Source of the DNA: Rhizobium sp. L43 | GTDB lineage: Bacteria > Pseudomonadota > Alphaproteobacteria > Rhizobiales > Rhizobiaceae | Direction: 5' to 3' | DNA: 64,000 nt | Assembly (NCBI RefSeq): GCF_002531725.1 | Contig: NZ_NWSQ01000032.1 | Span: forward strand, 1 to 64,000 | Part shown: positions 43,067 through 62,451 of the stretch, in pieces | Layout of the letters: the number at the start of each line of letters is the position of its first letter | Position numbering within the stretch: the stretch's first letter is position 1 | Notes under the pieces: model-generated | Databases searched by the model: none | What the model saw: only the letters and a program-made list of their open reading frames with translations | Told to the model about the DNA's origin: nothing | Made by a program: the position numbers and the translations under genes

Positions 43067-43089
43067 GGTGTAAGGTATAAGGTCATACC
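43067..43089. promoter_or_regulatory. Heptamer operator upstream of AKR operon
   Basis: GGTGTAA, GGTATAA, a GG spacer and TCATACC follow in order (43067-43089). The last two heptamers are an inverted pair with a two-base gap, GGTATAA-GG-TCATACC. The same arrangement occurs at 51229 and 54549, which links this operon to the GntR-2 regulator. Confidence 0.68.
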
Positions 43090-44109: not shown

Positions 44110-44228
44110 CTTTTTCCTCGCGCTGGTTCTGGAAGGGAGCAGAGATCGATAGACCAAAGCCATTGGCTCAGGAGGCCCGGTTCGGCGTGCCTCCTGACAG
44201 CCTCAACGTCGTCCCCGCTGAGCCAAAC

Positions 44229-46505: not shown

Positions 46506-47536
46506 GCCTCCGGAACTGGCGCGGCTTCAGGGATGAGGCCGGACGACTTCAGGTCGGCCCAGAACGCAGCCGGAACCGGCGTCGAGATCGCGGCGACGTT
46601 TGCGACGACGTGTTCGGGCGCCAGCGCTCCCTGTACCACCGCGGTCACTGCAGGATGTGCGTAGACAAATTGTGTCGCTGCAGTCGCAAGCGAGACGCCA
46701 TGGCGCTCGCAGACGGCTTCGAGCGCCTCGACCTTGCGGACGATCGCTTCAGGCGCGGGCTGGCAATCGTAGGTGCGGGTGGTTGTCATCGACTTGCTAC
46801 CCTCGGCGAGGATGCCGGAGTTGTAGATGCCAGCCGCAATGATACCGATGCCGCGACGCTGCATTTCTGGATAGAAATGGTCGAGAGCGCCGTGGTTGAG
46901 CAGGGTGTAGCGCCCGGCGACCATGGAGCAGTCGAGATCAAATTCCTCTGCCACCTGCAGGACCGACGCGGTTTCATTGACGCCGAGGCCGATGGCCTTC
47001 ACGGAGCCTGTGCTGCGCAGCTCGTCACACGCCTTGTAACCGCTCGATCTCAGCGCCGAAAGGTGGGTGCTATACGCCTCGCGGTGCCATTCGCCGCTCA
47101 CGTCGTGGAGATAGAGGATGTCAATGTGGTCCATACCCAGGCGCTGCTGGCTATCTTCGAAAGCGCGCATGATGCCGTCATAGGAATAGTCGTAGTCATC
47201 GACGAATGGCAGCGCCTTCACCCAGTCGATGCCGTAAAGGCTCTCGGCGCGCTTTGCGCGGCTTTCCGGCTTGAGTATCCGCCCCGCCTTGGTGCTGACC
47301 ACGACCTTGCCGATGAGATCGTTGTTGCGAAGGACATGGCCGAGGGAATGCTCGGACTTTCCAAGGCCGTAAAGGGGCGCGGTGTCGAAATAGCGGACAC
47401 CCAAGTCGTATGCCTTGAGGACGACCGCTTCGAAAGTCTGGAAGCTCACATCGACATTGCACCCACCGAGCGGCGAGGTACCCAGCCCTAGCGAGGTCAG
47501 CGTCACATCGGTCTTTCCAACTTTTCTCTTCAACAT
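46502..47536 (-). CDS. Aldo/keto reductase, aldose 1-dehydrogenase type, paralogue
   Basis: The 344-residue AKR parallels the protein at 41860-42903 along its whole length. The tetrad context is VRYFDTAPLYGLGKSEHSLG, STKAGRIL and LYLHDV, and both proteins share YDGxMRAFEDSQQRLG. An upstream in-frame start lies inside the hairpin after the binding-protein gene, so I use the ATG at 47536 (AGGA eleven bases before). It is the first enzyme gene after the importer, ahead of the RuBisCO-like gene, and would oxidise the imported sugar at C1 (inference). Confidence 0.9.
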   Translation of the reverse strand: MLKRKVGKTDVTLTSLGLGTSPLGGCNVDVSFQTFEAVVLKAYDLGVRYFDTAPLYGLGKSEHSLGHVLRNNDLIGKVVVSTKAGRILKPESRAKRAESLYGIDWVKALPFVDDYDYSYDGIMRAFEDSQQRLGMDHIDILYLHDVSGEWHREAYSTHLSALRSSGYKACDELRSTGSVKAIGLGVNETASVLQVAEEFDLDCSMVAGRYTLLNHGALDHFYPEMQRRGIGIIAAGIYNSGILAEGSKSMTTTRTYDCQPAPEAIVRKVEALEAVCERHGVSLATAATQFVYAHPAVTAVVQGALAPEHVVANVAAISTPVPAAFWADLKSSGLIPEAAPVPEA

Positions 47537-47600: not shown

Positions 47601-48599
47601 TTACATGTACTTCTCGACATTGGTGGAATCGAGCACGAGCCACGGCACGACGTAGTCCTTCTCGGTGCCGCCCTTCCATTCCATCAGCGAGCCCCAGATT
47701 TCGGACTGCGGCTTGTAGCTCTCGCCCTTGATCGCCCGCAGTGCGAGGTCGACCGCGCCCTGGCCTTCGGCGCGGGCGTACTTGTAGAGGCTGACCGCCA
47801 TCTCGCCCTTCTTCACGGCGCGCTTTGCGTCCGGAATGCCGTCGATCGCAAGAACGGGAACGGTCTTGAGATCGATGCCGGCGCTCTTCATGGCTTCGAT
47901 CGCGCCAAGCGCCATCTCGTCGTTTTCCGCAAGGACGCCGTTGATCTCACCCGGGTGTGCGAGCAACCAGTTCTCCATGAGCGCCTGACCCTCGGCGCGG
48001 CTCCAGTTGCCTGTCTTGTCTTCGATGAGCTTGAGGTTCGGGAACTTGGCGAGACCAGCGTCTATGCCTGCGCGGCGCTCGATCTGGGCCGACTGGCCGA
48101 TCGGACCCTCCATGAGGACGACGTTGCCGCCGTTCGGAAGGCGCTTGGCGAGTTCCTCAGCGATGATCCGGCCGCCTTCGGTATCGTTAACGATGATGGA
48201 CGCGGTGTATTTCGTCGACTTGGTCTTGAGCGCCGACACGATAAGCGGGATTTTCGCTTCGGCGGCCTTTTCGATCGGCGGCGCCGAGGCCTCGAGGTCG
48301 AAGGGTGACATGATGATCGCGTTGAATTGTTGGGTGATCGCTGTGTCGATCTGGTTCGCCTGTGTCAGTGGATCATACTTGCCGTCGAAAACGGTGATCT
48401 CGACCTCGCCCGATTTGACGGCGGGATGGTTCTGGATTTCCGTCGACCAAGCCTTCATGTACTCGCCGGACTCACCGAACGAGAGAGCCGCGATCCGAAT
48501 TTTGTCCTGCGCGAAGGCGAAGTTCCCGCCAGCCAACGTCGCTACGGCGATTGCCATACCCACACCCGCATTGAGCAGGTTCCTCCTAGACATCTGCAT
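47601..48599 (-). CDS. Periplasmic sugar-binding protein of importer 4
   Basis: The 332-residue product begins MQMSRRNLLNAGVGMAIAVA with a cleavage region NFAFAQD; SRRNLL resembles a Tat motif. Type I binding-protein lobes follow (FNAIIMSPFDLEASAPPIEKAAEAKIPLI and GVLAENDEMALGAIEAMKSAG). AGAGGAG lies eight bases before the ATG at 48599. It is encoded last among the importer genes and directly before the sugar dehydrogenase and RuBisCO-like genes, which is the strongest clue that its ligand is the pathway substrate. Confidence 0.93.
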   Translation of the reverse strand: MQMSRRNLLNAGVGMAIAVATLAGGNFAFAQDKIRIAALSFGESGEYMKAWSTEIQNHPAVKSGEVEITVFDGKYDPLTQANQIDTAITQQFNAIIMSPFDLEASAPPIEKAAEAKIPLIVSALKTKSTKYTASIIVNDTEGGRIIAEELAKRLPNGGNVVLMEGPIGQSAQIERRAGIDAGLAKFPNLKLIEDKTGNWSRAEGQALMENWLLAHPGEINGVLAENDEMALGAIEAMKSAGIDLKTVPVLAIDGIPDAKRAVKKGEMAVSLYKYARAEGQGAVDLALRAIKGESYKPQSEIWGSLMEWKGGTEKDYVVPWLVLDSTNVEKYM

Positions 48600-48694
48600 T
48601 TCATATTCTCCTCTGGTTTAAGATACGTCCGGACGCGACACGCTGGGCCGGACATTGTCGCCGGCCTTCCCCGGCGGCAATTTCGGGATTGGTC

Positions 48695-49657
48695 TTATTT
48701 GCGGATTTGGTCGGCGATGACCGCGACCACGATGATCGTGCCCTTGAGGACCTGCTGGTAGTATGAAGACACGCCCATGAGGTCCATGCCGTTGTTGATC
48801 GTGCCGATGATGAGCGCGCCGATCAGTGTGCCGAGCAGCGATCCGCGGCCGCCCGCAAGGCTCGTCCCGCCGATCACGACGGCGGCGATCGCGTCAAGCT
48901 CATAACCGATGCCCGCTTGCGGCAGCGCAGCGGTGGTGCGAGCCGTCAGGACAAGCCCCGCAAGACCAGCCAGGAGGCCCGAGATCACATAGGTCGCACC
49001 GACGATCACCTTGGTGGAAATGCCGCTCGTGCGAGCCGCCTTCTCGTTGCCGCCAACTGCGTACACATAACGGCCGAAAGTCGTATAGTTTAAAACGGTC
49101 CATCCAATCAGGAAGACGACGAACAGGATGACGATCGGTACCGGGATATACATGATCTGCCCGGAGCCGATCCACTTGAAGGGATCCGACAGATTCGGGA
49201 TGGGGCGTCCTTCCGAAAAGATCAAGGTGAGACCGCGGGCCACGCTCAACATGCCAAGCGTCACTACGAACGGCGGGACCTTGACCGCGGCAACAAGCAC
49301 GCCGTTCACCAAGCCGAGGCCGGCTCCCGCCGCGAGGCCCGCAAAGATACCGAAAAGCACGAACTGCTCGTTGGTCTCCGTTACGAGGCTGGCGGCGATC
49401 ATGCCCGCGAGCGCCATTACGGAGCCGACCGATAGGTCGATGCCCTTAGTAAGGATGACGAAGGTCACTCCGATCGCCAGAATGCCGTTGATCGACGACT
49501 GGCGAACGAGATTCAGCCAATTCAACCATGTCATGAAGTACTGGTTCGCGAACGCGAAGAACGCGACGATCAGGAAAAACACGAGAACGATGCTGAACTG
49601 CCTGATCATTTCCCCGGCGCGGAAGTTTCCGGGCTTCGCCGCAGCGATGGTATTCAT
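48695..49657 (-). CDS. RbsC-type ABC sugar permease 4
   Basis: The 320-residue membrane protein has LTKGIDLSVGSVMALAG near residue 70 and VVIGGTSLAGGRGSLLG near residue 270, with about nine hydrophobic segments. It is the only permease of this importer. It lies between the ATPase and binding-protein genes, spaced 38 and 95 bases. Confidence 0.93.
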   Translation of the reverse strand: MNTIAAAKPGNFRAGEMIRQFSIVLVFFLIVAFFAFANQYFMTWLNWLNLVRQSSINGILAIGVTFVILTKGIDLSVGSVMALAGMIAASLVTETNEQFVLFGIFAGLAAGAGLGLVNGVLVAAVKVPPFVVTLGMLSVARGLTLIFSEGRPIPNLSDPFKWIGSGQIMYIPVPIVILFVVFLIGWTVLNYTTFGRYVYAVGGNEKAARTSGISTKVIVGATYVISGLLAGLAGLVLTARTTAALPQAGIGYELDAIAAVVIGGTSLAGGRGSLLGTLIGALIIGTINNGMDLMGVSSYYQQVLKGTIIVVAVIADQIRK

Positions 49658-49695
49658 TACTCAAGTCCTCCCGTGAATGGGGCTATGACCGCTCA

Positions 49696-51228
49696 TCAGC
49701 TCGCCATGTCCATAAGCGTCTGTTGCGTTGCTTCGGCACCGTCGATGATGCTGAGGAGCTGCCCCTGTTTGAAAATCGCGATCCTGTCGCTGAGCTGCAT
49801 GATCTCCGGTGCCTCCGAGGAGACCACGAGGACGCCGTTGCCCTTTGCCGCGAAGTCTCGCAGGAACGCGTAGATCTCCTGCTTGGAACCTTCGTCGATG
49901 CCACGCGTCGGTTCGTCGCAAATGAGAAGCTTTGGATTTGTCAGAAGGCACCGGGCCAGCACGACTTTTTGTTGGTTGCCCCCTGACAGAGTTTCGACGG
50001 CAACATCTGGCGACGCCGACTTGATCCTCTGTGAGACGATCATGTCTTGAACTGCGCTGCGCTCTTTGTCCCCGCGGATGAAACCGCTGATGGCCATCAA
50101 GGCCAGCGATGAAAGCGTGATGTTGTGGGCGATCGATGCCGAGAGCACGAGACCACTGTCCTTGCGATCCTCGGTCACCATCGCCATTCCACGTTGAATT
50201 GCGTCCTTAGGACTGCCTGGCTTGACCTTACCGCCGTTGAAGACAACTTCGCCTCCCGTTGGTGAGTGCAGCCCGAATATTGTCTCGAGGAACTCGGTTC
50301 GTCCGGACCCAAGCAGCCCGTAGATTCCGACCACTTCGCCGGACGCCACGTCTAGCGAGATGTCTCGGAAATGAGGCCCGCGCGCCAAGTTCGAGACCGA
50401 AAGCAGGATTGGCGCGTCTTCGAGAGGCTTGCCCTTCTCGACCAGCTTGACTTCACGGCCGACGATCTGTGTCACAAGATGACGGCGGTCGATGTCTTTG
50501 ATGTTTCCAGTCTCGATGAAACGGCCGTCGCGGAAGACTGTGTACTCATCCGCGATCTCGAAGATTTCGGTGAGTTTGTGAGACACGTAGATAATTGCGG
50601 AACCGCGCGCGGTGATCTTGCGGAGCGCGTTGAACAAGACATGGACTTCGTGTTCGCCGATAGCAGATGTCGGCTCGTCCATGATGACGATATGTGCCCG
50701 ATAGCTGAGAGCCTTCGCAATTTCGACGAGCTGAATCTGGGCGAGGCTCAGCTCCCCCATCTTCTTGGCAGCGTCGACTTCAAAGCCGAGTTCATCGAGG
50801 AATGCCTGGGCGTCCCTGCGCATCTGGCTAAAATCGACGAGCACGCCAAGTCGCTTCGGCTCGCGGCCAAGGTAAAGGTTCTCGGCGACGGTCATCTCGG
50901 GGACGGGGGAAAGCTCCTGCGTGATGATCGCGATGCCGTGACGCAAGGCGTCAGCGGCGCTTTTGAAGTCGACCTGCTCGCCATCGATCTCCACTATCCC
51001 TCCATCGCGGCGGAGCAGTCCCATCGTGATGTTGAGGAATGTCGACTTGCCGGCGCCGTTACCGCCGCACAAGGCATGGACGGTCCCGGCCTTTAGAGTT
51101 AGTCGGCCATCAACGAGCGCTGGGACGCCGTTGAACGACTTTTCCACGCCCTCGGCCCGCAGAAGCACGCGTGCCGAAGACGACTGCGCGGTTCCCTGAA
51201 CTGTTATCTTCTCAGTTGCGTTGACCAT
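49696..51228 (-). CDS. RbsA-type dual ATPase of importer 4
   Basis: The 510-residue protein has two ABC cassettes. The first has Walker A GGNGAGKST, a weak signature LSLAQIQ and Walker B IVIMDEP. The second has GLLGSGRTE in place of Walker A, signature LSGGNQQK and Walker B LLICDEP. It is the first gene of the importer/RuBisCO-like operon. The ATG at 51228 has no near ribosome site, since GAGG is 14 bases upstream. Instead the operator palindrome 51229-51244 abuts the start codon, so a bound repressor would sit at the transcript start or over the leader. Confidence 0.92.
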   Translation of the reverse strand: MVNATEKITVQGTAQSSSARVLLRAEGVEKSFNGVPALVDGRLTLKAGTVHALCGGNGAGKSTFLNITMGLLRRDGGIVEIDGEQVDFKSAADALRHGIAIITQELSPVPEMTVAENLYLGREPKRLGVLVDFSQMRRDAQAFLDELGFEVDAAKKMGELSLAQIQLVEIAKALSYRAHIVIMDEPTSAIGEHEVHVLFNALRKITARGSAIIYVSHKLTEIFEIADEYTVFRDGRFIETGNIKDIDRRHLVTQIVGREVKLVEKGKPLEDAPILLSVSNLARGPHFRDISLDVASGEVVGIYGLLGSGRTEFLETIFGLHSPTGGEVVFNGGKVKPGSPKDAIQRGMAMVTEDRKDSGLVLSASIAHNITLSSLALMAISGFIRGDKERSAVQDMIVSQRIKSASPDVAVETLSGGNQQKVVLARCLLTNPKLLICDEPTRGIDEGSKQEIYAFLRDFAAKGNGVLVVSSEAPEIMQLSDRIAIFKQGQLLSIIDGAEATQQTLMDMAS

Positions 51229-51298: not shown

Positions 51299-52186
51299 CT
51301 ACGCGGCGTCCAGTTCGAGGATCGCGCGTGCCTCCTGGGGTGTAGCGGGCTCACGTCCGACCTTTTGGGCAATCTCAACAGCGCGCGATATGACTTCCGC
51401 GTTCGTGGGTGTGCCGAACTCGCGATAGGGATAGTCGCCTATTCCAATAGCCATGTGGCCGCCCAGACGGCAGATCGCAGGAGCAATGTTCAACAGATTG
51501 CCCCCAAGGCAATTGACCGTCCATTCGATCGGCCGGTCGTCGGGCAGAAATGCAAGATGCGCCATGAGACCCGCCTCGGTCGGCGGATGCCCGGTAATGT
51601 ATCGCCCTCCCGTTAGGTGCAGGAGAAAGTAGGCGGGCCCCCTCACAAGGCCCGCGTCCATCAGAGCGATCGCGCGGCGCGTGAACCCGACAGACCAGGA
51701 AACCAGCTTCGGCTTTACGCCCTTTTCGGCCAAGGTACGCGCGTAGTGCGCGAGACTTTCGGTCGTGTTGAGATACAAACGTTCTGGATTTTCGAACCTG
51801 CGCGTCTCGGCATCCCAAAGCTCGAGATTGGCCGAACCGGTATCGATGGGCGCAATATCGGGCTTCGTAGCAGGGTCCAATGCCAGGGTTGCGACCGTGT
51901 CGATGCGCTTCATGGCGTCGGCATCATTCGAGATAAAGCCGAGCGTGGGAAGGATGAGTAGATCGGTCGCCTGCCTGACTTCGCGGATGATTTCGGCGTT
52001 TGCCTCAACGGTGTTTGTCGCACCGCCGTCGGCTGTCCTGGCATGATAGTGGAGAATCGCCGCTCCCGCCTTGCGGGCTGCAACGGCGGCCTCAACGATC
52101 TCGTCGGCGGTGTATGGGATATTAGGGTTGGATGTGCGCGGCGCGTACTCGTTGACCCTGGCTTCGAGGATGATTTTCTTTTGCAT
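51299..52186 (-). CDS. BKACE (DUF849) beta-keto acid cleavage enzyme
   Basis: The 295-residue TIM-barrel protein has the family hallmarks. LEARVNE at the N terminus contains the catalytic Glu context. LHYHART holds the His-x-His zinc ligands near residue 50. Later come WSVGFTRRA and IAPAICRLGGHMAIGIGDYPY. BKACE enzymes cleave a beta-keto acid using acetyl-CoA, giving acetoacetate and a CoA ester. AAGGAG precedes the ATG at 52186. It follows the DUF1537 kinase gene by ten bases, so the two belong together. Here it would act on a 3-oxo sugar acid (inference), perhaps as an alternative branch to the RuBisCO-like route. Confidence 0.88.
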   Translation of the reverse strand: MQKKIILEARVNEYAPRTSNPNIPYTADEIVEAAVAARKAGAAILHYHARTADGGATNTVEANAEIIREVRQATDLLILPTLGFISNDADAMKRIDTVATLALDPATKPDIAPIDTGSANLELWDAETRRFENPERLYLNTTESLAHYARTLAEKGVKPKLVSWSVGFTRRAIALMDAGLVRGPAYFLLHLTGGRYITGHPPTEAGLMAHLAFLPDDRPIEWTVNCLGGNLLNIAPAICRLGGHMAIGIGDYPYREFGTPTNAEVISRAVEIAQKVGREPATPQEARAILELDAA

Positions 52187-52196: not shown

Positions 52197-53549
52197 TTAC
52201 GCCGCCAGATAACCCGAGGTGCCCGCCTTTGCCCGCAGGAAGAAGTCATCGGCACCAATCTGCCCGCCCTTCAGCATGACTTCGAGGCCATCGACTTCGG
52301 CGTCGCCCGGCGCATCCAGGCGGCAGACATGGCAATTTTGAACTTCGTCAAAAACGGCGATCTCGAGCGCTTCGGCGCCGATTGTCCGCACCGCATAGCT
52401 CGAACTGTCACCGCCCGAAAACACGATCCGCGGCAAGGAAACCGCGCGGCGCACGGCACGCGCAACGTCACAGTAGATGGCGCCCAAGCGTTCCGCGGGA
52501 ACATCGCCGCCGGCCAGACGGCCGGTTTCCCCGCGAGCCGTGTAGATGATTGTAGATCGACCGCGCACAAGGCTCTCGATCGCCTTCAAAGCAGCCTCCC
52601 GCGCAACTGCCTCAGCATCATCATCGGACCGGACTGTCGAGACATCCAAGTGGACAAGGTTCCACCCGGAAGCTTCGGCCACCGCAATCTGGCGCCCGGT
52701 TTGCAGGGCGCAACTACCTGATAAGACGAGTAGATTTTCGACGCCGGCAATCTCCGTCTTGACGGGCTCCGCCGACGATAGCAGGCCCAAGCGGGCCCAA
52801 AGAGCGCCGAGTTGTTGCGCCAAGCCTTGAGCTGCTAGCGCGAACATCGGACGTGTCGGATACCGCGCCCAGAGCAGATCGGCGACAGCCGCAAGATCCG
52901 CATTTTCGAGCCCATCGAAAATGACCCCTGCCCCCTCTTGGAAGGCCTTGAAGACACGCTCCTCCATTGCCGAGCGGTTCCGGATTGCGGGAAGCGTGAC
53001 GTTGACGAATTCCTTATCTGTCTGCCCAGCCAGATGCATGCGCAGATCCGCCTCGTGCATCGGCGTCCTGGGGTGGCGCGACATGCTCGGGTGCCGGTCG
53101 AGCCGCTCAATCCTGTCGGCAAAGCGCGCGAAATGATTTCCGAAACAGGTGTAGCGCCCGAAGTCCGGGGTCGCGGCGAGGACTGGAACGTCCCTCTTGC
53201 CGAAGTGAGCCGCAGCGCGCGCCAGAACAGCACCATAGCTTCCAACGGTGGGCGACGAGTCGAACGTCGAACAGATCTTGTATTGGATAAGCGGACTGTT
53301 GAGGGTGCGCATGATCGAAAACGCGCTGTCAAGCTCCTCGTCGAGCTCGACGCCGGACAACGCCCTTGCGGTACCGGCGAAGCCAAGCACATCATAAGAC
53401 AGAGCATCTGTTGACGCCGTCTGTGCTGAAGGGCGTGCGAGATAGAGTTTTCCCTTCACACCACTGCGATGGAACTGCGCCAGGTTTTCGGAAGAACCCG
53501 TGAAGTCGTCGCCGTAAAACACGGCCTTGAGCTTGCCAGCTGATGTCAT
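52197..53549 (-). CDS. DUF1537 sugar-acid kinase
   Basis: The 450-residue protein matches the DUF1537 kinase family. It has the N-terminal substrate domain with YGDDFTGSSENL near residue 11. Its C-terminal nucleotide domain has VFSGGDSSSYAVRTIGAEALEI and KGGQIGADDFF, the usual GGD and GxFG-type motifs. Family members phosphorylate four- to six-carbon acid sugars, including 3-oxo-tetronate and 3-oxo-isoapionate. GGGAGGA precedes the ATG at 53549. The gene diverges from the SDR at 53701, and the heptamer array lies between. Confidence 0.9.
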   Translation of the reverse strand: MTSAGKLKAVFYGDDFTGSSENLAQFHRSGVKGKLYLARPSAQTASTDALSYDVLGFAGTARALSGVELDEELDSAFSIMRTLNSPLIQYKICSTFDSSPTVGSYGAVLARAAAHFGKRDVPVLAATPDFGRYTCFGNHFARFADRIERLDRHPSMSRHPRTPMHEADLRMHLAGQTDKEFVNVTLPAIRNRSAMEERVFKAFQEGAGVIFDGLENADLAAVADLLWARYPTRPMFALAAQGLAQQLGALWARLGLLSSAEPVKTEIAGVENLLVLSGSCALQTGRQIAVAEASGWNLVHLDVSTVRSDDDAEAVAREAALKAIESLVRGRSTIIYTARGETGRLAGGDVPAERLGAIYCDVARAVRRAVSLPRIVFSGGDSSSYAVRTIGAEALEIAVFDEVQNCHVCRLDAPGDAEVDGLEVMLKGGQIGADDFFLRAKAGTSGYLAA

Positions 53550-53700
53550 CGGATCCTCCCAATATCCCGGCCGAGGATATCTTCCTCCATACATCAGCCG
53601 GGCTTCACTCTTGACAATACTCATAGAAGCAGCTCATAACTCTGTCAAGGTCATACCTTATACCTTATACCTCATATCGAGAAAATTGGAGGACGACGAG
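53550..53700. promoter_or_regulatory. Divergent promoter region, kinase / SDR
   Basis: This gene-free region carries a plus-strand promoter-like pair, TTGACA (53611-53616) and TCATAA (53634-53639) with a 17-base gap. The heptamer array at 53651-53678 lies just downstream of it, and repression of both directions would be possible. Confidence 0.62.
53651..53678. promoter_or_regulatory. Tandem heptamer array (four units)
   Basis: TCATACC, TTATACC, TTATACC and TCATATC follow one another without gaps (53651-53678). The first three have the TYATACC form and the fourth varies. The array begins about a dozen bases after the likely -10 box, a typical repressor position. Confidence 0.7.
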
Positions 53701-54495
53701 ATGAGACTTTCTGGACGCACTGCCGTGGTGACGGGCGCTGGCCGGGGCATCGGACTGGCAATCGCTGAAGCCTATGTTCGCGAAGGCGCGAATGTCGTTA
53801 TCGTCGACCGCGATCTGGAAGTGGCGAACGAAGCCGCCGAGCGGCTTGGGGAGCGGGCTTTGGCCGTCCGCGCCGATATTTCCGTCAACGAAGACGTTGA
53901 GACGATCGTTAAGGAAACGATTGGCCGATTCGGCACGGTCGACATACTCGTGAACAACGCGGGCGTGGGCGCAACCACTCTGTTTCTCGAAAGCTCACGG
54001 GAGGAATTCGAACGCGTCGTCCGGATCAATCTGACCGGAACATTCCTCGTGGCGCAAGCCTTTGCTCGGATCATGGCCGCCAAAGGCTATGGGCGGATCA
54101 TCAATATCGCTTCGCTGTCCGGTCAGAAGGGAGGTGTCGGGCGTTCGGCCTATGGAGCCTCAAAGGCCGGCGTCGAACTCCTCACGAAGGTTATGGCGGT
54201 CGAACTCGCGGAATCGGGAATCAATGTGAATAACATCGCACCGGGCCCGATATTGACCGAGGTCTCGAAAGTCATGCACACGGTCGAAACGCGTGACGCC
54301 TATCATCGGCTCGTTCCGCAACGCCGTTATGGCGAACCATCGGAAATCGCTGATGCCGCGGTGTTCCTGGCGAGCGACGATGCTGCCTATATTACGGGGC
54401 ACACCCTGAACGTCGACGGCGGCTTCCTGGCCGCTGGCCTCATGTTCCCATTCGATCCAAAAGCCTCGAAGCGGCTGGGACAAATCAGCGAATAA
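53701..54495 (+). CDS. SDR-family dehydrogenase
   Basis: The 264-residue classical SDR has TGAGRGIG at residue 12, NNAGVGAT near residue 88, ASLSGQKGG at the Ser position and YGASK near residue 156. The Asp in IVDRDLE after the second strand favours NAD(H), as for a catabolic dehydrogenase. GGAGG precedes the ATG at 53701 by eight bases, and the promoter array confirms this start over an upstream in-frame one. It is the best candidate for oxidising the acid sugar to a 3-oxo acid before the kinase (inference). The regulator gene follows after 100 bases. Confidence 0.92.
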   Translation: MRLSGRTAVVTGAGRGIGLAIAEAYVREGANVVIVDRDLEVANEAAERLGERALAVRADISVNEDVETIVKETIGRFGTVDILVNNAGVGATTLFLESSREEFERVVRINLTGTFLVAQAFARIMAAKGYGRIINIASLSGQKGGVGRSAYGASKAGVELLTKVMAVELAESGINVNNIAPGPILTEVSKVMHTVETRDAYHRLVPQRRYGEPSEIADAAVFLASDDAAYITGHTLNVDGGFLAAGLMFPFDPKASKRLGQISE

Positions 54496-54595: not shown

Positions 54596-55297
54596 ATGCT
54601 GTCTGTTGACCCAAAGAAAATCCCAAGCCGGCTGGACATAGCGCTCGACTACATTACGGGCGAAATTGCCAAAGGCAACCTCGGGCCTGGTGACAAACTT
54701 CCCAATGAAAAAGAGCTGGCCCAGCTTCTCGGGATCAGTCGCACTCCAATCAGAGAGGCGATCAAAACGCTCGCGGTCTCGGGTCTTGTCGAGACGCGTC
54801 ATGGCTTTGGAAATTACATCCGTAAGGACGAAGGCCTTCCGGCGATGCCGCTCGCGATGTTTCAGCTCTATCTTCAGAGCTCGACGCCTGAGATGCTGAT
54901 GGAACTGCGATACATTTTCGACCGCAACTGTTCAGAACTCGCGTCGCTGCGGCGTACGGACGAAGACCTCGCCACGATGAGAGAGTGCATCGACCGACTA
55001 AAAAGGCTGTCGGAGGATGCGAACTCCGCGATCGAAGATCTCCTCAAGGCCGATCTCGATTTCCACCGAGCAATATACAAAGCCGCCGGAAACCCGTTGA
55101 TCGTCGTGATCGCCGACTTCGTGCTGACGATGGTCGCGCCTTGGGTGCAAAAATCGCTAGAGGTCAGTGGCAAATGGCGCGCAGTCGATCTCCACGAACA
55201 CATGTTTCAGATGATCCGGGACAGAAAGACCGGTGACCTCAGCCGCGAGAGCGTCGAGGAAAACATGGAACACTTCCGCACATCCCTGCTGAAATGA
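54596..55297 (+). CDS. GntR-family (FCD) regulator, GntR-2
   Basis: The 233-residue protein has the GntR winged helix (residues 10-75; KLPNEKELAQLLGISRTPIREAIKTLAVSG) and an FCD effector domain (about 85-225) with LKADLDFHRAIYKAAGNPL, the usual metal/ligand-binding helix. FCD proteins respond to sugar acids or other carboxylates, as expected for an acid-sugar pathway. Five sites of one heptamer family lie at the pathway's promoters and at its own, so it is the presumptive repressor of the whole block. Confidence 0.93.
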   Translation: MLSVDPKKIPSRLDIALDYITGEIAKGNLGPGDKLPNEKELAQLLGISRTPIREAIKTLAVSGLVETRHGFGNYIRKDEGLPAMPLAMFQLYLQSSTPEMLMELRYIFDRNCSELASLRRTDEDLATMRECIDRLKRLSEDANSAIEDLLKADLDFHRAIYKAAGNPLIVVIADFVLTMVAPWVQKSLEVSGKWRAVDLHEHMFQMIRDRKTGDLSRESVEENMEHFRTSLLK

Positions 55298-55452
55298 CAG
55301 CCAGGGCATCACGTCAAGGCGTGGCGCATCTTACATTTCCCGCAGGTCGCACTGCGATCATCACCGGCGGCATCTGAAGGCGGACGCGAAGCCCGGATAC
55401 CGTATGCCGCCCGGCCTATTCGCCGGGTTCTGAAAATTGCCAGAAAACGATA

Positions 55453-55481
55453 ATGCGCCAGGCTGATTGCGCCTGGCGCAT
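55453..55481 (-). terminator. Terminator of the transketolase-RpiB operon
   Basis: ATGCGCCAGGC (55453-55463) pairs perfectly with GCCTGGCGCAT (55471-55481) across seven bases. On the minus strand it is followed by TATCGTTTTC, a partial T tract. It lies just beyond the RpiB-like stop at 55514. Confidence 0.7.
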
Positions 55482-55513
55482 CGACCGCGAGCAATGCATG
55501 CCCAGCCTTCCAA

Positions 55514-55978
55514 CTAGCGGGCGTGGTATTTCGTATCGACCTCGTCGATGGCGGCAACATTGCTGGCCGAGCGACCGTTCTCGTCGAACCTCTGGGCGAG
55601 GAATGAGTCGACGATCGTCTTCGCAAGTTCCGATCCAATGACGCGGGCGCCCATGGTAATGATCTGGGCGTTGTTCGACAACGCCGCCCGCTCGGCGGAA
55701 TAAGTATCGTGTGTGAGGGCTGCCCTAATACCCGGCACCTTGTTTGCCGAAATGCAGACGCCGATCCCGGTGCCGCACACCAGGATGGCCTTGTCATAGG
55801 TGCCGTCGAGCACGCCGTTGGCGACCCTGTCGGAGAGGTTCGCATAGAAATCGTCGAGACCGGCGTCCGTCCGGGAGACCTCGAACACCTCAAAACGGTC
55901 CTTGAGATAATCGGCGAGGACCTTGGCGAGGCCCTCGCCCGCGCTGTCGCCTGCTACTGCAATTTTCATCTTCATCAC
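55514..55978 (-). CDS. rpiB: RpiB-family sugar-phosphate isomerase
   Basis: The 154-residue protein has the RpiB/LacAB fold: [21 protein letters not shown] at the N terminus, and [30 protein letters not shown] with the catalytic Cys in [23 protein letters not shown] follows. RpiB isomerises ribose and ribulose 5-phosphates, and a homologue (EryI) interconverts D-erythrulose 4-phosphate and D-erythrose 4-phosphate in erythritol catabolism. The TPI-like gene beside it (three-base gap) strongly recalls that erythritol pair. I infer the erythrose role. Confidence 0.92.
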
Positions 55979-55981
55979 TCC

Positions 55982-56752
55982 TCAGATTTTGGCCGCGCAC
56001 TTTTCGAGGATGTCGAGGTAGCCCTCGATCTTCCAGGCCGAGCGGCCGATGAACAGCCCATCGACATGAGGGCAGGATATGAGCTCTTCGCAGTTGTCTG
56101 CGTTGACCGAACCGCCGTAGAGGCAGGGAATGCGCCGGCCGAGCACGGCTTCCGCGAACGCGATGATCTCGGCCTGGCGGGCGTCGGCGTAGTCCGCTGT
56201 CGCGGGGATCCCATCGACGCCAATGGCCCAAACAGGCTCGTAGGCAAGCAGTATCGGTTTGTGCTTCTGGTCGGTAGAAAGGCTTCCCAACGCGCCACGA
56301 ACCTGGCGCTCGAGGACGTCGCGGGCTCGCCCGGCCTCGCGTTCGGAAAGTGTCTCCCCTATGCAGATGAGCGGGATCAAGCCGTGGCGAACCGCCGCCT
56401 CGACTTTCAGTCCTACCGTCACGTCCGTCTCACCGAAATGTTCACGCCTCTCGGAGTGACCAAGCTCGACGATGTCGAGGTTGCAGTCTGTAAGCATCAA
56501 GGCCGAAATCTCGCCCGTCCAGGCGCCCTCCTCGTCCCAGTGCATGTTCTGCGCGCCGACCTTTACCGACGTGCCCGCCAATGTGGTCTTCACTTCCCGG
56601 ACAACAGTGAAAGGAGGGATGACAAAGCGCTGGATGCGCGGATGGGACGTGATGTCTGCGGCCCTGAGACCGTGCGCAAATTGCGCGGCATCGGCAAGCG
56701 TCTTGTTCATCTTCCAGCTGGTGCCAATCCAGAGGGTTTTCTTCTCGGTCAT
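55982..56752 (-). CDS. Triosephosphate-isomerase-family protein
   Basis: The 256-residue TIM barrel has the catalytic residues of TPI: Lys in SWKMNKTL near residue 13, His in ELGHSERREHFG near residue 96, and Glu in YEPVWAIG near residue 165. The phosphate loop CLYGGSVNADN lies near residue 210. A TPI homologue (EryH) interconverts L-erythrulose 1-phosphate and D-erythrulose 4-phosphate in erythritol catabolism. A second TPI in a catabolic operon next to RpiB suggests that function over glycolysis (inference). The ATG at 56752 is taken, with only a weak ribosome site, over a GTG at 56767. Confidence 0.9.
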   Translation of the reverse strand: MTEKKTLWIGTSWKMNKTLADAAQFAHGLRAADITSHPRIQRFVIPPFTVVREVKTTLAGTSVKVGAQNMHWDEEGAWTGEISALMLTDCNLDIVELGHSERREHFGETDVTVGLKVEAAVRHGLIPLICIGETLSEREAGRARDVLERQVRGALGSLSTDQKHKPILLAYEPVWAIGVDGIPATADYADARQAEIIAFAEAVLGRRIPCLYGGSVNADNCEELISCPHVDGLFIGRSAWKIEGYLDILEKCAAKI

Positions 56753-56794
56753 GTCCCGCTTCACCACGTTTGCGTTCGAACTGCTGTGACCTAC

Positions 56795-57844
56795 CTAGAG
56801 CGAGCCGGCTCGATACCGCTTCGCCATTTCCGCGAGTGGCACGACGTTGATAGAGCTTGCGCGCCCTGCCGTTCCGAAAGCTTCGAATCTTTCGCGACAA
56901 AGCTTCGAAAGCGCCGTCATTGCGGGCTTCAAATATTTGCGAGGGTCGAATTCTGTCGGATCTTCGGACAGCACTCGGCGCACCTGCCCGGTCATTGCCA
57001 TGCGGCAATCCGTGTCGATGTTGACCTTTCGCACACCATGCCGAATGCCGCGCAGGATTTCCTCGAGCGGCACGCCCCAGGTGGGCTTCATCCGCCCGCC
57101 GAAGCGATTGAAGATTTCCTGCAACTCCTCCGGCACGCTTGACGAACCGTGCATGACGAGATGGGTATTCGGAAGTTTCCGGTGGATCGCCTCGATAACA
57201 TCCATTGCCAGCACGTCACCGTCCGGCCGGCGTGAGAACTTGTAGGCGCCATGGCTGGTGCCCATTGCGACGGCAAGCGCATCCACCTTGGTCTCCGCGA
57301 CAAATTTCGCCGCCTCCTCCGGATCGGTCAGAAGCTGATGCGGATCGAGCTTGCCTTCGACGCCGTGACCGTCTTCCGCCTCGCCCGCACCGGTCTCAAG
57401 CGAGCCCAGAACGCCAAGCTCCCCTTCCACCGAAACCCCTGCCCAATGGGCCGTGTCGCTGACGCTTCTCGTGACCTTGACGTTGTAGTCCCAATCCGCC
57501 GCGGTTTTCCCGTCAGCAAGGATCGATCCGTCCATCATTACGGACGTAAAACCATGCTGGATCGCGGTGACGCAGGTGCTCGGTTCGTTTCCGTGGTCAA
57601 GATGGACGCAAACGGGGATATGCGGATAGATTTCCGTCACCGCCTCCATCATGTGCTTGAGCATGATGTCGTTGACATAGGCTCGCGCCCCACGGCTCGC
57701 CTGGAGGATGACAGGCGAATCCGTTCCGTCGGCCGCTTCCATGATGGCAAGCGCCTGTTCCATGTTGTTAATGTTGAACGCCGGGACGCCGTAGCCGTGT
57801 TCGGCGGCATCATCCAGCAGCTGGCGGAGAGTAATCCTGGCCAT
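56795..57844 (-). CDS. fba: Class II fructose-bisphosphate aldolase
   Basis: The 349-residue zinc aldolase has [10 protein letters not shown] near residue 80, GTSHGAYKF near residue 200 and VMHGSSSVP near residue 235, the metal and phosphate sites of class II FBP aldolases of the Calvin-cycle (CbbA) type. It condenses DHAP with glyceraldehyde 3-phosphate; such aldolases also accept erythrose 4-phosphate to make sedoheptulose 1,7-bisphosphate. It stands six bases after the FBPase gene in the same operon. Confidence 0.94.
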
Positions 57845-57850
57845 GACATG

Positions 57851-58873
57851 TTACTCGCTGGTTGGATTGGAATTGAGATAGCTTGCGATCACGTCGACCT
57901 CCGTCGCCGAACCGAAAACCAGCGGCGTGCGGCAATGGTGAGAGGTCGGGATCTTGTCCAGGATGGCGGTCGTGCCGTCGGTGGCCCGCCCCCCGGCCTG
58001 CTCCATCAGGAACGCGATCGGATTCGCTTCATACACCAGTCGAAGGCGCCCATTTTCAAAGCCGGGTCGCTTGTCGCCGGCGTAGAAGAACACACCGCCC
58101 CTGATCAGGATCCGGTGGAGCTCTCCGACTGCCGATCCGAGCCAACGCATGTTGAAATCACGGCCGCGCGTTCCCTCCTTGCCGGTCAGACAATCCTGAA
58201 GATACAGGCTCATGGCAGGGTGAAGGTGACGGTGGTTGGAAGCGTTATATGCAAGCTCGGACGTGTCGCAAGGTATCAGAACCTGCCTTTTGACGATCAG
58301 GAACTCGCCGGTTTGGGGATGCATCGTCGCCAGCAGCACACCCTCACCGACCGAAAAGCCCAAATCGACGGTGTTGCCGAATGAGACATAACCGGCCGCG
58401 GCCTGGCGCTTTCCAGGGGTTAAAAAGGGATCTTCAGCTTCGCAGAAAGGCATGATCGAGAAGATCGTGCCGACGGGCGTGCCCAGCCCGACATTGCCTG
58501 AACCGTCGATCGGGTCGATTGCGACCGCAAAATGCTGGCCATTGAGCATAACTGGCGCGTCGGCCTCCTCGGACAGGACCCTGGCAGCGCCTGCGCGTGC
58601 GAGTATTTCGATGAACAACTCGTGCGACGCGATGTCGATTGCCTTTTGCGCATCACCGTCGGTATTTGATCCGACAAGGTGGGCCAGATCGCCCTCCAGG
58701 GAACCGGCTGCGATGCGTGCGGATAAAAGACAGGCGGCATCCAACACACCGTTGATTAGAGCCGCCACCCCCTGACGGGACAAATCTTCACCAGCCCAGG
58801 TCGAGAGGTACTCATCGACAGAACCATACTGGACGCCCGCTTCGTCATTTCCGGGTGTCGCCGGCGCGCTCAT
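57851..58873 (-). CDS. fbp: Class I fructose-1,6-bisphosphatase
   Basis: The 340-residue class I FBPase has the metal-binding signature [22 protein letters not shown] near residue 115 and the sugar-phosphate motif with [13 protein letters not shown] near residue 290. Calvin-cycle homologues (CbbF) also dephosphorylate sedoheptulose 1,7-bisphosphate. It overlaps the transketolase gene by four bases. With the aldolase and transketolase it can recycle erythrose 4-phosphate without a transaldolase (inference). Confidence 0.93.
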
Positions 58874-60864
58874 TGCTTGCCCCTTATCCTTGCTAGGGCG
58901 CGCGTGACGATTGCGTCACGCGTGATCCCAAATTGCTCGTACAGCGTCTCGGCCGGCGCAGACGCTCCGAAGCCGGACATCCCGATCACGTCGTCTTCGC
59001 TGTCGACATACCTAGTCCAGCCGAACTTCGAGAGCGCTTCCACGGCAATGCGCGGCGCGTTGCCGAGGACCGAGCTGCGGTAATCCTTGGGCTGCTTTTC
59101 GAAGAGATCCCAGCTCGGCATCGAGACGACAGCGGCGGGAACGTTTCTCGCCTCAAGCTCGTCGGCAGCCTGGATCGCAAGCGCGACTTCCGTTCCAGTG
59201 GCGATGATTGTGACGGCACGTTCGCTGCTCGCTTCCCGCAGCACATAGGCTCCCCGTGCGCAGCGATTGATGCCGTCACGCTGGGCGCGCAGTTGCGGGA
59301 CATTCTGCCGCGAGAGCGCCAAAACCGACGGCGTGTTCTTGCTGGTTATTGCAAGATCCCAGCATTCCAGCGTCTCGATGGTGTCGGCGGGCCGGAATAC
59401 ATGCAAGTTCGGCATTGCCCTGAGGCTGGCAAGATGCTCGACCGGCTGGTGCGTCGGACCGTCTTCGCCAAGACCGATCGAGTCATGCGTCATCACGAAG
59501 ATAGAGCGGACGCCCATCAGAGCCGCCACACGAATGGCATTGCGGCAATAATCCGAGAAGACGAGGAACGTGCCACCATAGGGTATGACGCCGCCGTGAG
59601 CCGCCATACCGTTCATCGCGGCGGCCATGGCAAACTCTCTAACGCCATAGCTGACATACCGCCCGCTTGCAGCGGCGGTGAAATCGCTGTCGACGGCCGG
59701 AACCCGGGTCAAGTTTGAGTGGGTGAGGTCAGCGGACCCGCCGATCATTTCCGGAAGCAGCTCCGTCAGCGCTTCCAGTGCGATCTGGCTTGCCTTACGC
59801 GTTGCCACTGATTGCGGCTTGTCGAGCAGCTTTGCCTTGGCGGCGTTGACCGCTTCCTCATATCGCGCTGGCAATGAGCCGGCGGTGCGGCGTTCAAACT
59901 CACTTCTGACATCTGCGCCCGCTGCTTCGAGCCGCGCTTGCCAGTCCTTGCGCGCCTTGGCGCCCTTCGCGCCGACTTCGCGCCAAGTTTTGAGGATTGG
60001 AGCAGGAATCTCGAAAGTGTCCGCCGTCCAGCCATAGACTGCCTTCGTCGCGGCGGCTTCGCTGGCGCCGAGCGGTGCACCATGTACGGAGCTTGTTCCT
60101 GCCCTTGACGGAGAGCCGTATCCAATGATGGTTTTCAGGGCTATGAGGGATGGTCTGGATGCTTCCGCCTTCGCCTGCGAGATCGCCGCGTCGATCGCAT
60201 CCGGATCATGACCGTCAACGCGCTGCGTGTGCCATCCGTACGCGTCGAACCTCGCGAGCACATCTTCTGAAAACGCGATTGCGGTCGAGCCGTCGATGGT
60301 GATGGAGTTGTCGTCGTAAAGGACGATCAACTTGCCGAGCTGCAGGTGGCCGGCCAGCGAAGCAGCTTCCTGACCAACACCTTCCATGAGACACCCATCT
60401 CCACAGAAAACGTACGTCCGGTGATCGACAAGCGCTGCGCCAAATTCGGTTGATAGGCGCCGCTCCGCAATAGCCATTCCGACAGCCGACGCGATCCCCT
60501 GTCCGAGCGGCCCGGTGGTCGTCTCGACGCCAGCGGTGTGCCCATATTCGGGATGACCTGGCGTTTTGGAGCCCCATTGGCGGAAGTTGCGAACCTGCTC
60601 AATGGTCATGTCTTTGTACCCGGTGAGGTGCAGAAGGCTGTAGAGCAGCATCGAGCCATGGCCGTTCGACAGGACGAAACGATCGCGGTCCGGCCAGCCA
60701 GGTTCGCTTGAATCGAACTTGAGGTGCCGGCCGAACAGCACCGCCGCCGCATCAGCCATGCCCATGGGCATTCCGGGGTGCCCGGACTTTGCGGCCTCAA
60801 CCGCGTCGATCGACAGGACACGGATAGCGTTCGCGAGATCGCGGATCGAAACTGCTGCTGTCAA
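58870..60864 (-). CDS. tkt: Transketolase
   Basis: The 664-residue thiamine-diphosphate enzyme has the N-terminal [15 protein letters not shown]. The cofactor motif [32 protein letters not shown] lies near residue 150. The pyrimidine-domain region [24 protein letters not shown] is near residue 400. It transfers two-carbon units between sugar phosphates. No ATG is in place: a TTG at 60862-60864 with GGGGAGGA five bases before it is the likely start. It heads the five-gene operon, with a heptamer array 140 bases upstream. Confidence 0.94.
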
Positions 60865-61004
60865 TTCTTCCTCCCCATAAACCGCGACCAATGTGGCGCA
60901 TTTTTCTGGACATCACAATATCAGAACACAAAATAACGCAATACACACGATAAACATAACAATATCACATTCCGCTGCGACTGCGAAGAGTCTGCCCATC
61001 GACA

Positions 61005-61025
61005 TCATACCTCATACCTTATACC
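61005..61025. promoter_or_regulatory. Tandem heptamer array (three units)
   Basis: TCATACC, TCATACC and TTATACC follow without gaps (61005-61025), the same unit as at 53651-53678. It lies 140 bases upstream of the transketolase operon and 295 bases before the binding-protein gene. Confidence 0.7.
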
Positions 61026-61320: not shown

Positions 61321-62451
61321 ATGCCTTTGACGATGCGCAAGTCCTTACAGATGATCGCCCTTGCCACTGCCCTCGGCGGTAGCGCTGCCTATGCGCCGAG
61401 CGCCTTCGCGGTCGATATCGATAAACAGATCAAGGATATTGAAAGTCACCCGGCAAGCGGGCCCAACGGCGAAAAAGCGACCCTCGCGAGCGACCTGAAG
61501 CTATCCGCCGAAGAGATCGAAAAGATCAAGGCGAAGCATGCCAAAGCGGCCATTGTGATGCACTACACGGCGTCTGACTGGGCCAAGGCCCAGATGGCCG
61601 GGCAAAAGAAGGCCCTGGAAGAGCTCGGCGTCGAAATCGTTGCGACGACTGATGCTGGATATCGCGCGGAGCAGCAAGTTTCAGACATCGAAAGCGTCAT
61701 GGCGCTCAAACCTGACGTCATGATTACCGTTCCCGCCGAGCAGTCAGCCACGGCCGCAGCATACAAGAAAGCTGCTGCCGCTGGCATTAAGATCATCTTC
61801 CTTGACCAGACCGGCGCCGGGATGAAGGCTGGCAAAGACTATGTGAGCCTCGTCTCTTCCGACAACCGCGGGATGGGAAAGGTCGCCGCACTGCTCATGG
61901 CCAAGGCGCTCGACGGCAAGGGCGAAATTGGTCTCATCCCGCATGCGTCCGACCTTTTTGCCACCAAAGAACGCGTGGTCGGCTTCGAGGAAGCGATCAA
62001 GGATTATCCGGATATTAAGGTCGTCCAGGAGACCGGTGTCGGAGGCCCTGATTTCTCAAGCGAATCCGAGCGCGTCGCCTCCGCAATGCTGACGGCCCAC
62101 CCCAACCTCAATGGCATCTGGGCCGTGTGGGACGTGCCAACAGAAGGCGTCCTGTCAGCGGCGCGCGCAGCGGGCGCGTCCAAGAGCCTCGTCATCACCA
62201 CTTGCGACCTTGGCGTCAACATCTCGATCGACATGGCTAAGAAGGGTTACGTCAAGGGAACCGGATCCCAGCGTCCGTACGGCGCCGGTTATGCCGAGGG
62301 CATCCTTGCCGGATACGCCCTTCTCGGAAAGGACGCACCTCCCTACGTCGTGCTCCCGGCCCTTGCGGTGACCCGCGATAACCTGATCGAGGCGTGGCCG
62401 CAGTCGAACGGCGACCAGGCACCGAAGATTCTCACCGACGCAATGAACTAA
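61321..62451 (+). CDS. Periplasmic sugar-binding protein of importer 5
   Basis: The 376-residue product begins MPLTMRKSLQMIALATALGG with a Sec cleavage region APSAFAVD. It has an N-terminal charged segment of about 40 residues before the first strand (KAAIVMHYTASDWAKAQMAGQKKAL). Type I binding-protein lobes follow, including VMITVPAEQSATAAAYKKAAAAGIKII. GGGAGGA lies seven bases before the ATG. It diverges from the transketolase operon, and an ATPase gene follows after 55 bases. Confidence 0.93.
   Translation: MPLTMRKSLQMIALATALGGSAAYAPSAFAVDIDKQIKDIESHPASGPNGEKATLASDLKLSAEEIEKIKAKHAKAAIVMHYTASDWAKAQMAGQKKALEELGVEIVATTDAGYRAEQQVSDIESVMALKPDVMITVPAEQSATAAAYKKAAAAGIKIIFLDQTGAGMKAGKDYVSLVSSDNRGMGKVAALLMAKALDGKGEIGLIPHASDLFATKERVVGFEEAIKDYPDIKVVQETGVGGPDFSSESERVASAMLTAHPNLNGIWAVWDVPTEGVLSAARAAGASKSLVITTCDLGVNISIDMAKKGYVKGTGSQRPYGAGYAEGILAGYALLGKDAPPYVVLPALAVTRDNLIEAWPQSNGDQAPKILTDAMN

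Follow-up and report, generated by a model that had tools for sequence, protein, structure and literature searches.

We propose that five genes in a 64,000-nucleotide stretch of the Rhizobium sp. L43 genome (contig NZ_NWSQ01000032.1, positions 1 to 64,000; referred to here as the window) form a dedicated tetrose-phosphate recycling operon, which serves a catabolic pathway in which an OiaX-type RuBisCO-like protein (RLP), encoded in the same window, carries out the key step, and we consider this assignment to be probable. The operon encodes, in this order, a transketolase (TKT), a class I fructose-bisphosphatase (FBPase, FBP), a class II fructose-bisphosphate aldolase (FBA), a TPI-family isomerase and an RpiB-family isomerase. 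Its gene content, family membership, phylogeny and linkage, as well as a motif that it shares with the OiaX operon, can be read directly from the DNA and are laid out below. An earlier interpretation of the same DNA, made without database searches (the sequence-only reading), had listed these genes, likened them to a Calvin cycle (cbb) operon and suggested that they recycle D-erythrose 4-phosphate (E4P) through sedoheptulose 1,7-bisphosphate, as proposed for erythritol catabolism. It is partly confirmed here. The open reading frames and curated models agree on the gene order, and the core idea of E4P passing through sedoheptulose 1,7-bisphosphate is well supported by relatives, since the same families occur in eryABCD-type operons and Brucella genetics point the same way, although the window locus itself has no eryABC genes.

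The five-gene operon

The five genes are tightly packed on the minus strand from 60891 to 55514, with TKT and FBP overlapping by 4 bp and the following genes separated by 6, 27 and 3 bp, and each of the encoded proteins passes a curated NCBIfam family model (Table 1). The RpiB-family protein scores above the cut-off of NF051858, the model specific for D-erythrulose-4-phosphate isomerase (DerI), and the TPI-family protein, which is 73-78% identical to the TPIs of sampled erythritol operons, is proposed to be an L-erythrulose-1-phosphate isomerase (LerI/EryH type). We further propose that the aldolase joins E4P and dihydroxyacetone phosphate (DHAP) and that the FBPase functions as a sedoheptulose-1,7-bisphosphatase. 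The TKT shares 56% identity with the other transketolase of the genome, on contig C14. Terminator-like hairpins are not more common in the region than in its shuffles, and the hairpin at 55482-55452 therefore counts as evidence of position only; matches to sigma-70 promoters are at chance level.

Phylogeny and sequence signature

The FBPases of OiaX and erythritol loci are united in a clade of 25 of the 81 rows (support 100/100), of which 11 are from OiaX loci, 7 from erythritol loci, 2 from loci with TPI or RpiB only and 5 from loci with neither partner set, while no cbb row falls inside. The careful tree of TKT likewise gives a clade without any cbb row (14 of 47 rows, 100/100), composed of 9 OiaX, 4 erythritol and 1 Pararhizobium rows, and a quick tree places the genome's other transketolase outside it. 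The aldolase tree is less clean: 11 OiaX-locus rows are united with the Pararhizobium row (100/98), and the wider group around them also takes in cbb rows (see below). The window TPI groups with erythritol-type and some other OiaX-locus TPIs and not with the copy on contig C21 (quick tree with long branches, support 92). It should be noted that L292-L296, L298 and L299 are labelled OiaX loci in these trees because their contigs also carry OiaX, although beyond the stretch that was fetched. The phosphate/metal motif reads DPxDGSG in the FBPases of the five-gene set (the module) and mostly DPLDGSS in cbb FBPases. Three columns, the glycine-for-serine position among them, set at least 90% of the 18 module rows apart from at least 90% of the 52 cbb rows. 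Because their clades are separate and include the copies from erythritol operons, the TKT and FBPase were, as judged by these trees, not borrowed recently from a cbb operon. The earlier notion of a Calvin-type module reused for sugar breakdown is modified to this extent: a catabolic role is retained as probable, and a recent borrowing is not.

Where the module occurs

The module adjoins OiaX on annotated plasmids of R. phaseoli, R. acidisoli and Agrobacterium salinitolerans, and in further Rhizobium genomes and an Ensifer the two are on the same contig, about 9-12 kb apart. A. tumefaciens HAMBI 105 and L296 have the set with OiaX and without a nearby TKT match. The same five families are found inside eryABCD-type operons of Roseibium, Labrenzia, Roseinatronobacter and Thalassospira; the erythritol-type operons that carry the module also encode an FGGY kinase, a glycerol-3-phosphate-dehydrogenase-like protein, a TIM-barrel or isomerase/epimerase protein and a sugar-binding regulator. 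We compared 73 FBPase contexts, made up of 13 plasmid stretches picked from 227 records and 60 hand-picked genome stretches, mostly the best-scoring ones. PRK (phosphoribulokinase) or CbbL is present in 51 of them, none of which has TPI together with RpiB, and TPI and/or RpiB in 13 (6 erythritol, 4 OiaX, 3 others), none of which has PRK; the other 9 have neither PRK/CbbL nor TPI/RpiB. For the 60 genome contexts alone, the numbers are 50 with PRK/CbbL, 3 with TPI/RpiB, 0 with both and 7 with neither (Fisher p = 0.0035). The likeness to a cbb operon thus holds for the TKT, FBP and FBA families but does not extend to TPI and RpiB, which are missing as a pair from all 51 sampled cbb contexts. Ensifer sp. 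MPMI2T carries the module and a separate cbb operon with PRK and CbbLS, and the two are distinct lineages.

Among 20 genomes searched via named OiaX loci, the window FBPase was matched in 12, including 10 of the 11 with near-identical loci (exception L013) and 2 of the 3 with more distant BKACE loci (exception L020), and it was not matched in the genome of L043 or in five Mesorhizobium genomes. The idea that the module is tied to every OiaX was rejected, as these five Mesorhizobium genomes have OiaX, TPI, RpiB and an aldolase close together and lack an FBPase match.

On one contig of Rhizobium sp. R634, two near-identical OiaX loci (L007 and L017) are separated by about 280 kb, and both have a 99% FBPase match. 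Phaseolus is given as the source in 10 of the 11 plasmid records with an FBPase of at least 80% identity, which may represent a host link or a sampling bias. At L238, L040 and L048, OiaX is near ery-type genes, with erythrulose-phosphate isomerase families in common, and in the two Mesorhizobium loci L040 and L048 an aldolase gene is located between TPI and eryC. In the plasmid record CP002245.1 of S. fredii GR64, the module copies are called cbbF and cbbT, and PMC3224233, on plasmid pSfr64a, makes no mention of cbb, transketolase, fructose, RuBisCO, Calvin or catabol-.

Calvin cycle enzymes and related enzymes in the genome

The genome (7.1 Mb, 99 contigs) is rated 100% complete, and no phosphoribulokinase was found in it. 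Two matches to the PRK Pfam family are both otherwise explained, one as a type I pantothenate kinase by NCBIfam and the other as a fusion of nucleotidyltransferase and HAD domains without a match to any phosphoribulokinase model, and the S. meliloti phosphoribulokinase as query gave no match in a search run without a positive control of its own. There are two RuBisCO_large matches, the window protein and one on contig C21, both of which pass the OiaX model, and no form I-III RuBisCO was found among them. These genome-wide searches bear out the statement of the sequence-only reading that a true RuBisCO and PRK are absent, whereas what it took for the only RuBisCO homologue is the only one in the window, the second being the OiaX-type protein of C21. 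The window FBPase is the only class I FBPase over the cut-off in the genome, in which GlpX was not found, and the window aldolase is the only match to PF01116 (class II aldolase); the second transketolase is on contig C14 and one transaldolase is on contig C59. All five other same-genus genomes listed have no match to the window FBPase, so the genus can do without this enzyme. For housekeeping, these rhizobia may have an FBPase of another family, as Bbp is in Brucella.

The OiaX-type RuBisCO-like protein

The window RLP passes the NCBIfam model for OiaX, which is defined as a 3-oxo-isoapionate-4-phosphate decarboxylase, and in the R. phaseoli relative OiaX is annotated from a start equivalent to about 46496. 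According to PMC6302742, citing Carter et al. 2018, RLPs of the apionate pathway decarboxylate or transcarboxylate 3-oxo-isoapionate 4-phosphate. The claim that the window RLP lacks the loop-6 lysine, and with it the idea of a defective RuBisCO, was rejected, as a pairwise profile alignment had misplaced the lysine by one residue and the addition of intermediates corrected it. Specifically, in three MAFFT modes with intermediate relatives of the next RLP type included, K317 of OiaX aligns with the loop-6 lysine of CbbL, and this column is K in 20/20 OiaX, 19/19 intermediate and 22/22 CbbL rows and in 102/102 distinct OiaX-group rows. Of the active-site positions, given in RuBisCO residue numbers, 14 of 15 are invariant in all 102 rows, including the equivalents of K175, K201, D203, E204, H294, R295, K334, S379, G403 and G404, and the equivalent of K177 is A in 95 rows and S in 7. 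The active-site equivalents of the window OiaX group and the other OiaX rows are identical, and no column that is conserved in both carries a substitution specific to the window group.

The product of OiaX decarboxylation is L-erythrulose 1-phosphate, and the window RLP is the likely feeder of the recycling operon with tetrose phosphate. Since the models for OiaX and D-erythrulose-4-phosphate isomerase are both passed and the locus has no eryABC, the tetrose phosphate probably comes from OiaX and not from erythritol. In the window and the rest of its contig, which is the extent of this search, eryB and eryC gave no match at E 1e-5 and the best EryA match (26935-25685) has 24% identity and was not counted as an eryABC gene; erythritol was rejected as the substrate of the window locus for this lack of eryABC. 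As a control for the tetrose isomerases, we started from the 27 places that show 60% identity or more to OiaX and, after omitting the six lowest as well as the window itself, analyzed the remaining 20. In 8 of these 20 loci, and in 0 of 20 hand-chosen loci of the next RLP type (40-47% identity), a relative of TPI or RpiB is situated at most about 10 kb away (Fisher p = 0.003, for places that are not independent). In this sample, the tetrose-phosphate isomerases are thus associated with the OiaX type. Of the 20 loci with the next RLP type, 17 have an ApnO-like gene and 18 an OiaK-like gene.

A motif shared by the two operons

The recycling operon and the OiaX operon are apparently in one regulon. 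An operator-like motif, ATACCTNATACCTTATA, occurs in the intergenic region of each and in a weaker copy further along the locus (Table 1), the site at 61007 being about 116 bp upstream of the TKT start, and with up to 3 mismatches there are 4 matches in the 64-kb window compared with 0.07 expected. The looser form ATACCTNATACCTNATA (up to 2 mismatches) was found in 14 of 16 window-type loci (10 of 12 distinct records) and in none of 66 others, namely 20 canonical OiaX, 19 cbb, 7 erythritol and 20 other-RLP loci. The 16 loci include four same-record pairs (L090/L300, L021/L295, L023/L296 and L016/L294) and L043, which was included without having a BKACE match, and many of the Rhizobium loci are near-identical copies; the window-type loci without ATACCTNATACCTNATA are A. 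tumefaciens L301 and L020. As judged by coordinates, A. salinitolerans (L090), R. acidisoli (L089) and Ensifer (L295) each have one site no more than about 200 bp upstream of TKT, and L296 has one upstream of FBP. We infer that the GntR/FCD protein encoded at 54596-55297 acts on the shared motif. Its relatives (65-99% identity) are present in the other motif-bearing records tested and in the motif-free L020; the match in the motif-free L301 is only 34%. The stretches L295 and L296 themselves have no GntR/FCD match, and the same records show it as L021 and L023.

Proposed mechanism

Based on the gene families and their relatives, we now put forward a hypothetical mechanism, in which we infer the substrate, each of the enzymatic steps and the direction of flux. 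A sugar would enter by ABC transport and be oxidized to a lactone and then to an acid, and a branched 3-oxo acid would be formed and phosphorylated. The RLP would then form an erythrulose phosphate by removing CO2 from a branched 2-carboxy-3-oxo sugar-acid phosphate (3-oxo-isoapionate 4-phosphate or a close analogue), in what would be the decarboxylation counterpart of carboxylation by RuBisCO. Two isomerizations, by the TPI-family and RpiB-family enzymes, would lead from erythrulose phosphate to E4P, which the aldolase would combine with DHAP to give sedoheptulose 1,7-bisphosphate, and the FBPase would irreversibly take off one phosphate to yield sedoheptulose 7-phosphate (S7P). Transketolase would convert S7P and glyceraldehyde 3-phosphate (GAP) to pentose phosphates, and these together with more E4P to fructose 6-phosphate (F6P) and GAP. 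By arithmetic, and assuming housekeeping pentose isomerases, the net reaction would be 3 E4P -> 2 F6P + Pi. The phosphatase step would make the disposal of tetrose both irreversible and independent of transaldolase. The steps from E4P onward have genetic support in Brucella, in which an fba tal double mutant fails to grow on erythritol (PMC11005471). Brucella Fbp, as described in the same paper, hydrolyzes sedoheptulose bisphosphate and acts on both bisphosphates.

Our best reading is that the module serves a second OiaX pathway, of the BKACE/SDR/aldo-keto reductase type, which is distinct from the apiose-type operon on contig C21 of the same genome. In addition to OiaX, an OiaK-like kinase, TPI and RpiB, the latter (L244) encodes counterparts that match the ApnO- and ApsD-type proteins of R. 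etli p42f, ApnO and ApsD presumably being the names of the p42f PGDH-C and Gfo/Idh proteins. In the p42f operon ApnL passes its model (1049.7 bits, cut-off 750), as does OiaX, and the window and the rest of its contig have no match to p42f ApnO, ApsD or ApnL at the thresholds used. Among 110 scanned stretches, which overlap and of which many are near-identical, BKACE was found in 22, ApnO in 67 and both in 0, and it is from this exclusion that we suggest that SDR and BKACE may replace ApnO. In place of that oxidoisomerase, the SDR would perform an oxidation and the BKACE-fold metalloenzyme a metal-dependent ketol rearrangement. In its complete form, this would be an undescribed branched-sugar pathway in which SDR and BKACE feed the RuBisCO-fold decarboxylase and the tetrose is recycled by a co-regulated, tetrose-evolved, Calvin-like module common to erythritol operons, a proposal that we offer as speculative and rather unlikely.

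Bradyrhizobium elkanii pS15H (L302) has the BKACE/SDR/AKR/lactonase set with a different RLP (481 bits against the OiaX cut-off of 700), an OiaK-like kinase and a pyruvate kinase gene, and no match to TPI, RpiB, TKT, FBP or FBA. Its gene content would fit an RLP that yields 3-phosphoglycerate.

Weighing of alternative explanations

Any assignment of the operon to tetrose-phosphate recycling with OiaX must take into account several observations that weigh against it. For five of the 25 FBPase-clade rows, the stretch seen shows no TPI/RpiB and no PRK, and the 26-row aldolase group that holds the module (100/99), along with Mesorhizobium aldolases beside OiaX/ery loci, also contains three cbb rows. 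An FBPase match is lacking in 3 of 15 genomes with window-type or near loci (L013, L020 and L043), and the window kinase scores 284 bits with the OiaK model, under the cut-off of 700, as do the kinases of apiose-type operons (R. etli 473 and C21 482 bits). The apiose-type operons of R. etli p42f and C21 have TPI and RpiB but no TKT, FBP or FBA match in the examined stretch, and the module is therefore not obligatory for OiaX. The transaldolase of the genome could handle E4P without the bypass, and, as reported in PMC11005471, either route alone supports growth of Brucella on erythritol, where a tal mutant and bypass-only mutants grow and an fba tal double mutant fails.

Operons of the cbb type have the same gene families, the same FBA subfamily (TIGR01521) and the same TKT-FBP-FBA composition, and together with the cbbF/cbbT naming in CP002245.1 this would suit a remnant or cryptic Calvin cycle, that is, a cbb-derived operon that lost RuBisCO and PRK or uses ones encoded elsewhere. 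We regard this as highly improbable, and a hidden Calvin cycle as rejected, as neither PRK nor a form I-III RuBisCO was found in a genome rated complete, none of the 51 contexts with PRK/CbbL has TPI and RpiB, TKT and FBP branch apart from the cbb rows, and Ensifer sp. MPMI2T holds both systems as separate lineages. The operon might instead be a general gluconeogenic helper with an incidental link to OiaX, the replicon supplying FBPase and aldolase so that its host can grow on C3/C4 acids, which would agree with their being the only class I FBPase over the cut-off and the only class II aldolase in a genome where no GlpX was found, and with the action of Brucella Fbp on both bisphosphates (PMC11005471). 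Yet the five other same-genus genomes do without a match to this FBPase, and the operon includes tetrose-phosphate isomerase families and has a motif in common with the OiaX operon, which leaves such a role improbable. We give a similarly small chance to a C6 branched acid such as hamamelonate (2-carboxyarabinitol) as the substrate, from which the RLP would release a pentulose phosphate, with RpiB and TKT handling pentoses. 2-Carboxyarabinitol is abundant in bean leaves. Phaseolus predominates among the plasmid sources, although that bias may be one of sampling, and the kinase and upstream enzymes are unlike the apiose-type set; PMC10176493 cites a D-hamamelose pathway that involves an RLP. 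On the other side, the RpiB passes the D-erythrulose-4-phosphate model, the module is common to erythritol operons, and the active-site positions of the RLP match those of other OiaX rows. We therefore retain tetrose-phosphate recycling in an OiaX-dependent catabolic pathway as the probable function of the five genes.

Other genes of the sugar locus

The features of the locus are collected in Table 1, in which the starts of the kinase, BKACE, AKR3 and metallo-beta-lactamase-fold genes are taken from an annotated relative. An L-threonylcarbamoyladenylate synthase (TsaC/Sua5) gene is kept within the sugar cluster of Rhizobium and Agrobacterium relatives (L088, L090 and L091), and the window open reading frame (ORF) 43153-44163 was assigned to TsaC/Sua5 by its position; this is a tRNA-modification family with no obvious role in a sugar cluster.

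Table 1. Features of the recycling operon and the surrounding sugar locus, in window coordinates.
Feature	Position	Strand	Basis
Metallo-beta-lactamase-fold protein, candidate sugar lactonase	40522..41388	-	PF00753
Aldo/keto reductase AKR3	41860..42903	-	PF00248
Weaker motif copy upstream of AKR3-lactonase operon	43069-43085		ATACCTNATACCTTATA, 3 mismatches
Aldo/keto reductase AKR2	44229..45209	-	PF00248
RuBisCO-like protein, putative OiaX-type decarboxylase	45213..46505	-	NF042437 OiaX 757.7 bits, cut-off 700
Aldo/keto reductase AKR1, candidate sugar 1-dehydrogenase	46502..47536	-	PF00248; occurs in OiaX loci of window type
Sugar ABC transporter (ATPase, permease, binding protein at 47601-48599) in OiaX operon	47601..51228	-	ORFs; annotation of R. 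phaseoli relative
BKACE-family enzyme	51299..52186	-	PF05853 202 bits; no NCBIfam model over cut-off
DUF1537 four-carbon acid sugar kinase family, gene 1 of kinase-BKACE-ABC-AKR-OiaX operon	52197..53549	-	PF07005/PF17042
Operator-like motif between SDR and kinase operons	53653..53676		two overlapping ATACCTNATACCTTATA matches, 0 and 1 mismatch
SDR dehydrogenase, divergent from kinase operon	53701..54495	+	PF13561/PF00106 (scan from 53698)
GntR/FCD regulator, candidate regulator of motif	54596..55297	+	PF00392 and PF07729
Terminator-like hairpin 3' of RpiB, closing operon	55452..55482	-	12 pairs, then T-rich tail
RpiB-family D-erythrulose-4-phosphate isomerase (DerI/EryI type)	55514..55978	-	NF051858 257 bits, cut-off 240
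TPI-family isomerase	55982..56767	-	NF000722 425 bits, cut-off 293
Class II fructose-bisphosphate aldolase (FBA), Calvin-type subfamily	56795..57844	-	TIGR01521 600 bits, cut-off 496
Class I fructose-bisphosphatase (FBP)	57851..58873	-	NF006780 471 bits, cut-off 358
Transketolase (TKT), operon gene 1	58870..60891	-	TIGR00232 863 bits, cut-off 682
Operator-like motif between TKT operon and divergent sugar-binding-protein gene	61007-61023		ATACCTNATACCTTATA, 0 mismatches
Sugar-binding protein of second ABC transporter, divergent from TKT operon	61321..62451	+	ORF; substrate-binding protein in annotated relatives

Comparison with known systems

The essence of our proposal is that the locus joins two known systems, OiaX decarboxylation and E4P recycling, for which there is good comparative support. 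If true, a relative of RuBisCO and Calvin-type regeneration enzymes would cooperate in catabolism, with CO2 released and not fixed, and the route of E4P via sedoheptulose bisphosphate, known from Brucella genetics, would become recognizable as a cassette with its own FBPase and transketolase lineages. Such a cassette would let annotation tell tetrose-phosphate modules from Calvin cycles (one GenBank record uses cbbF/cbbT), and a second OiaX pathway would be made directly testable. In literature searches that mostly covered papers outside subscription journals, and in which most hits were judged by their listing, we saw no description of TKT, FBPase and aldolase together in an erythritol or apiose locus, which is weak evidence of absence.

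The erythritol operon eryABCD with tpi/rpiB of Brucella, Sinorhizobium and Roseibium likewise ends in E4P via the same two isomerase families, whereas the window locus has no match to eryA, eryB or eryC and its entry would be via an OiaX-type decarboxylase. Geddes 2013 (PMC3599248) places an aldolase gene in Mesorhizobium and Brucella erythritol loci, and the word transketolase is absent from its main text. With the oxidative D-apiose/D-apionate pathway (OiaK, OiaX), of which R. etli p42f is an example, the window has in common OiaX, a DUF1537 kinase, TPI, RpiB and a sugar ABC transporter, and it differs in having BKACE, an SDR, three aldo/keto reductases, a metallo-beta-lactamase-fold protein and a divergent kinase. 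The cbb operon of S. meliloti pSymB shares the TKT, FBP and FBA families and the chemistry from E4P to S7P, whereas the window operon lacks PRK and RuBisCO, contains TPI and RpiB, and has its TKT and FBP in separate clades. A further counterpart is the Fba/Fbp-Bbp bypass of Brucella, in which, according to PMC11005471, E4P and DHAP give sedoheptulose 1,7-bisphosphate and then S7P on a tetrose source, Fbp being called one of the canonical FBPases and Bbp a phosphatase of another group. In the window, by comparison, the aldolase, FBPase and transketolase are together in one operon with the isomerases, and in several relatives this operon is on plasmids.

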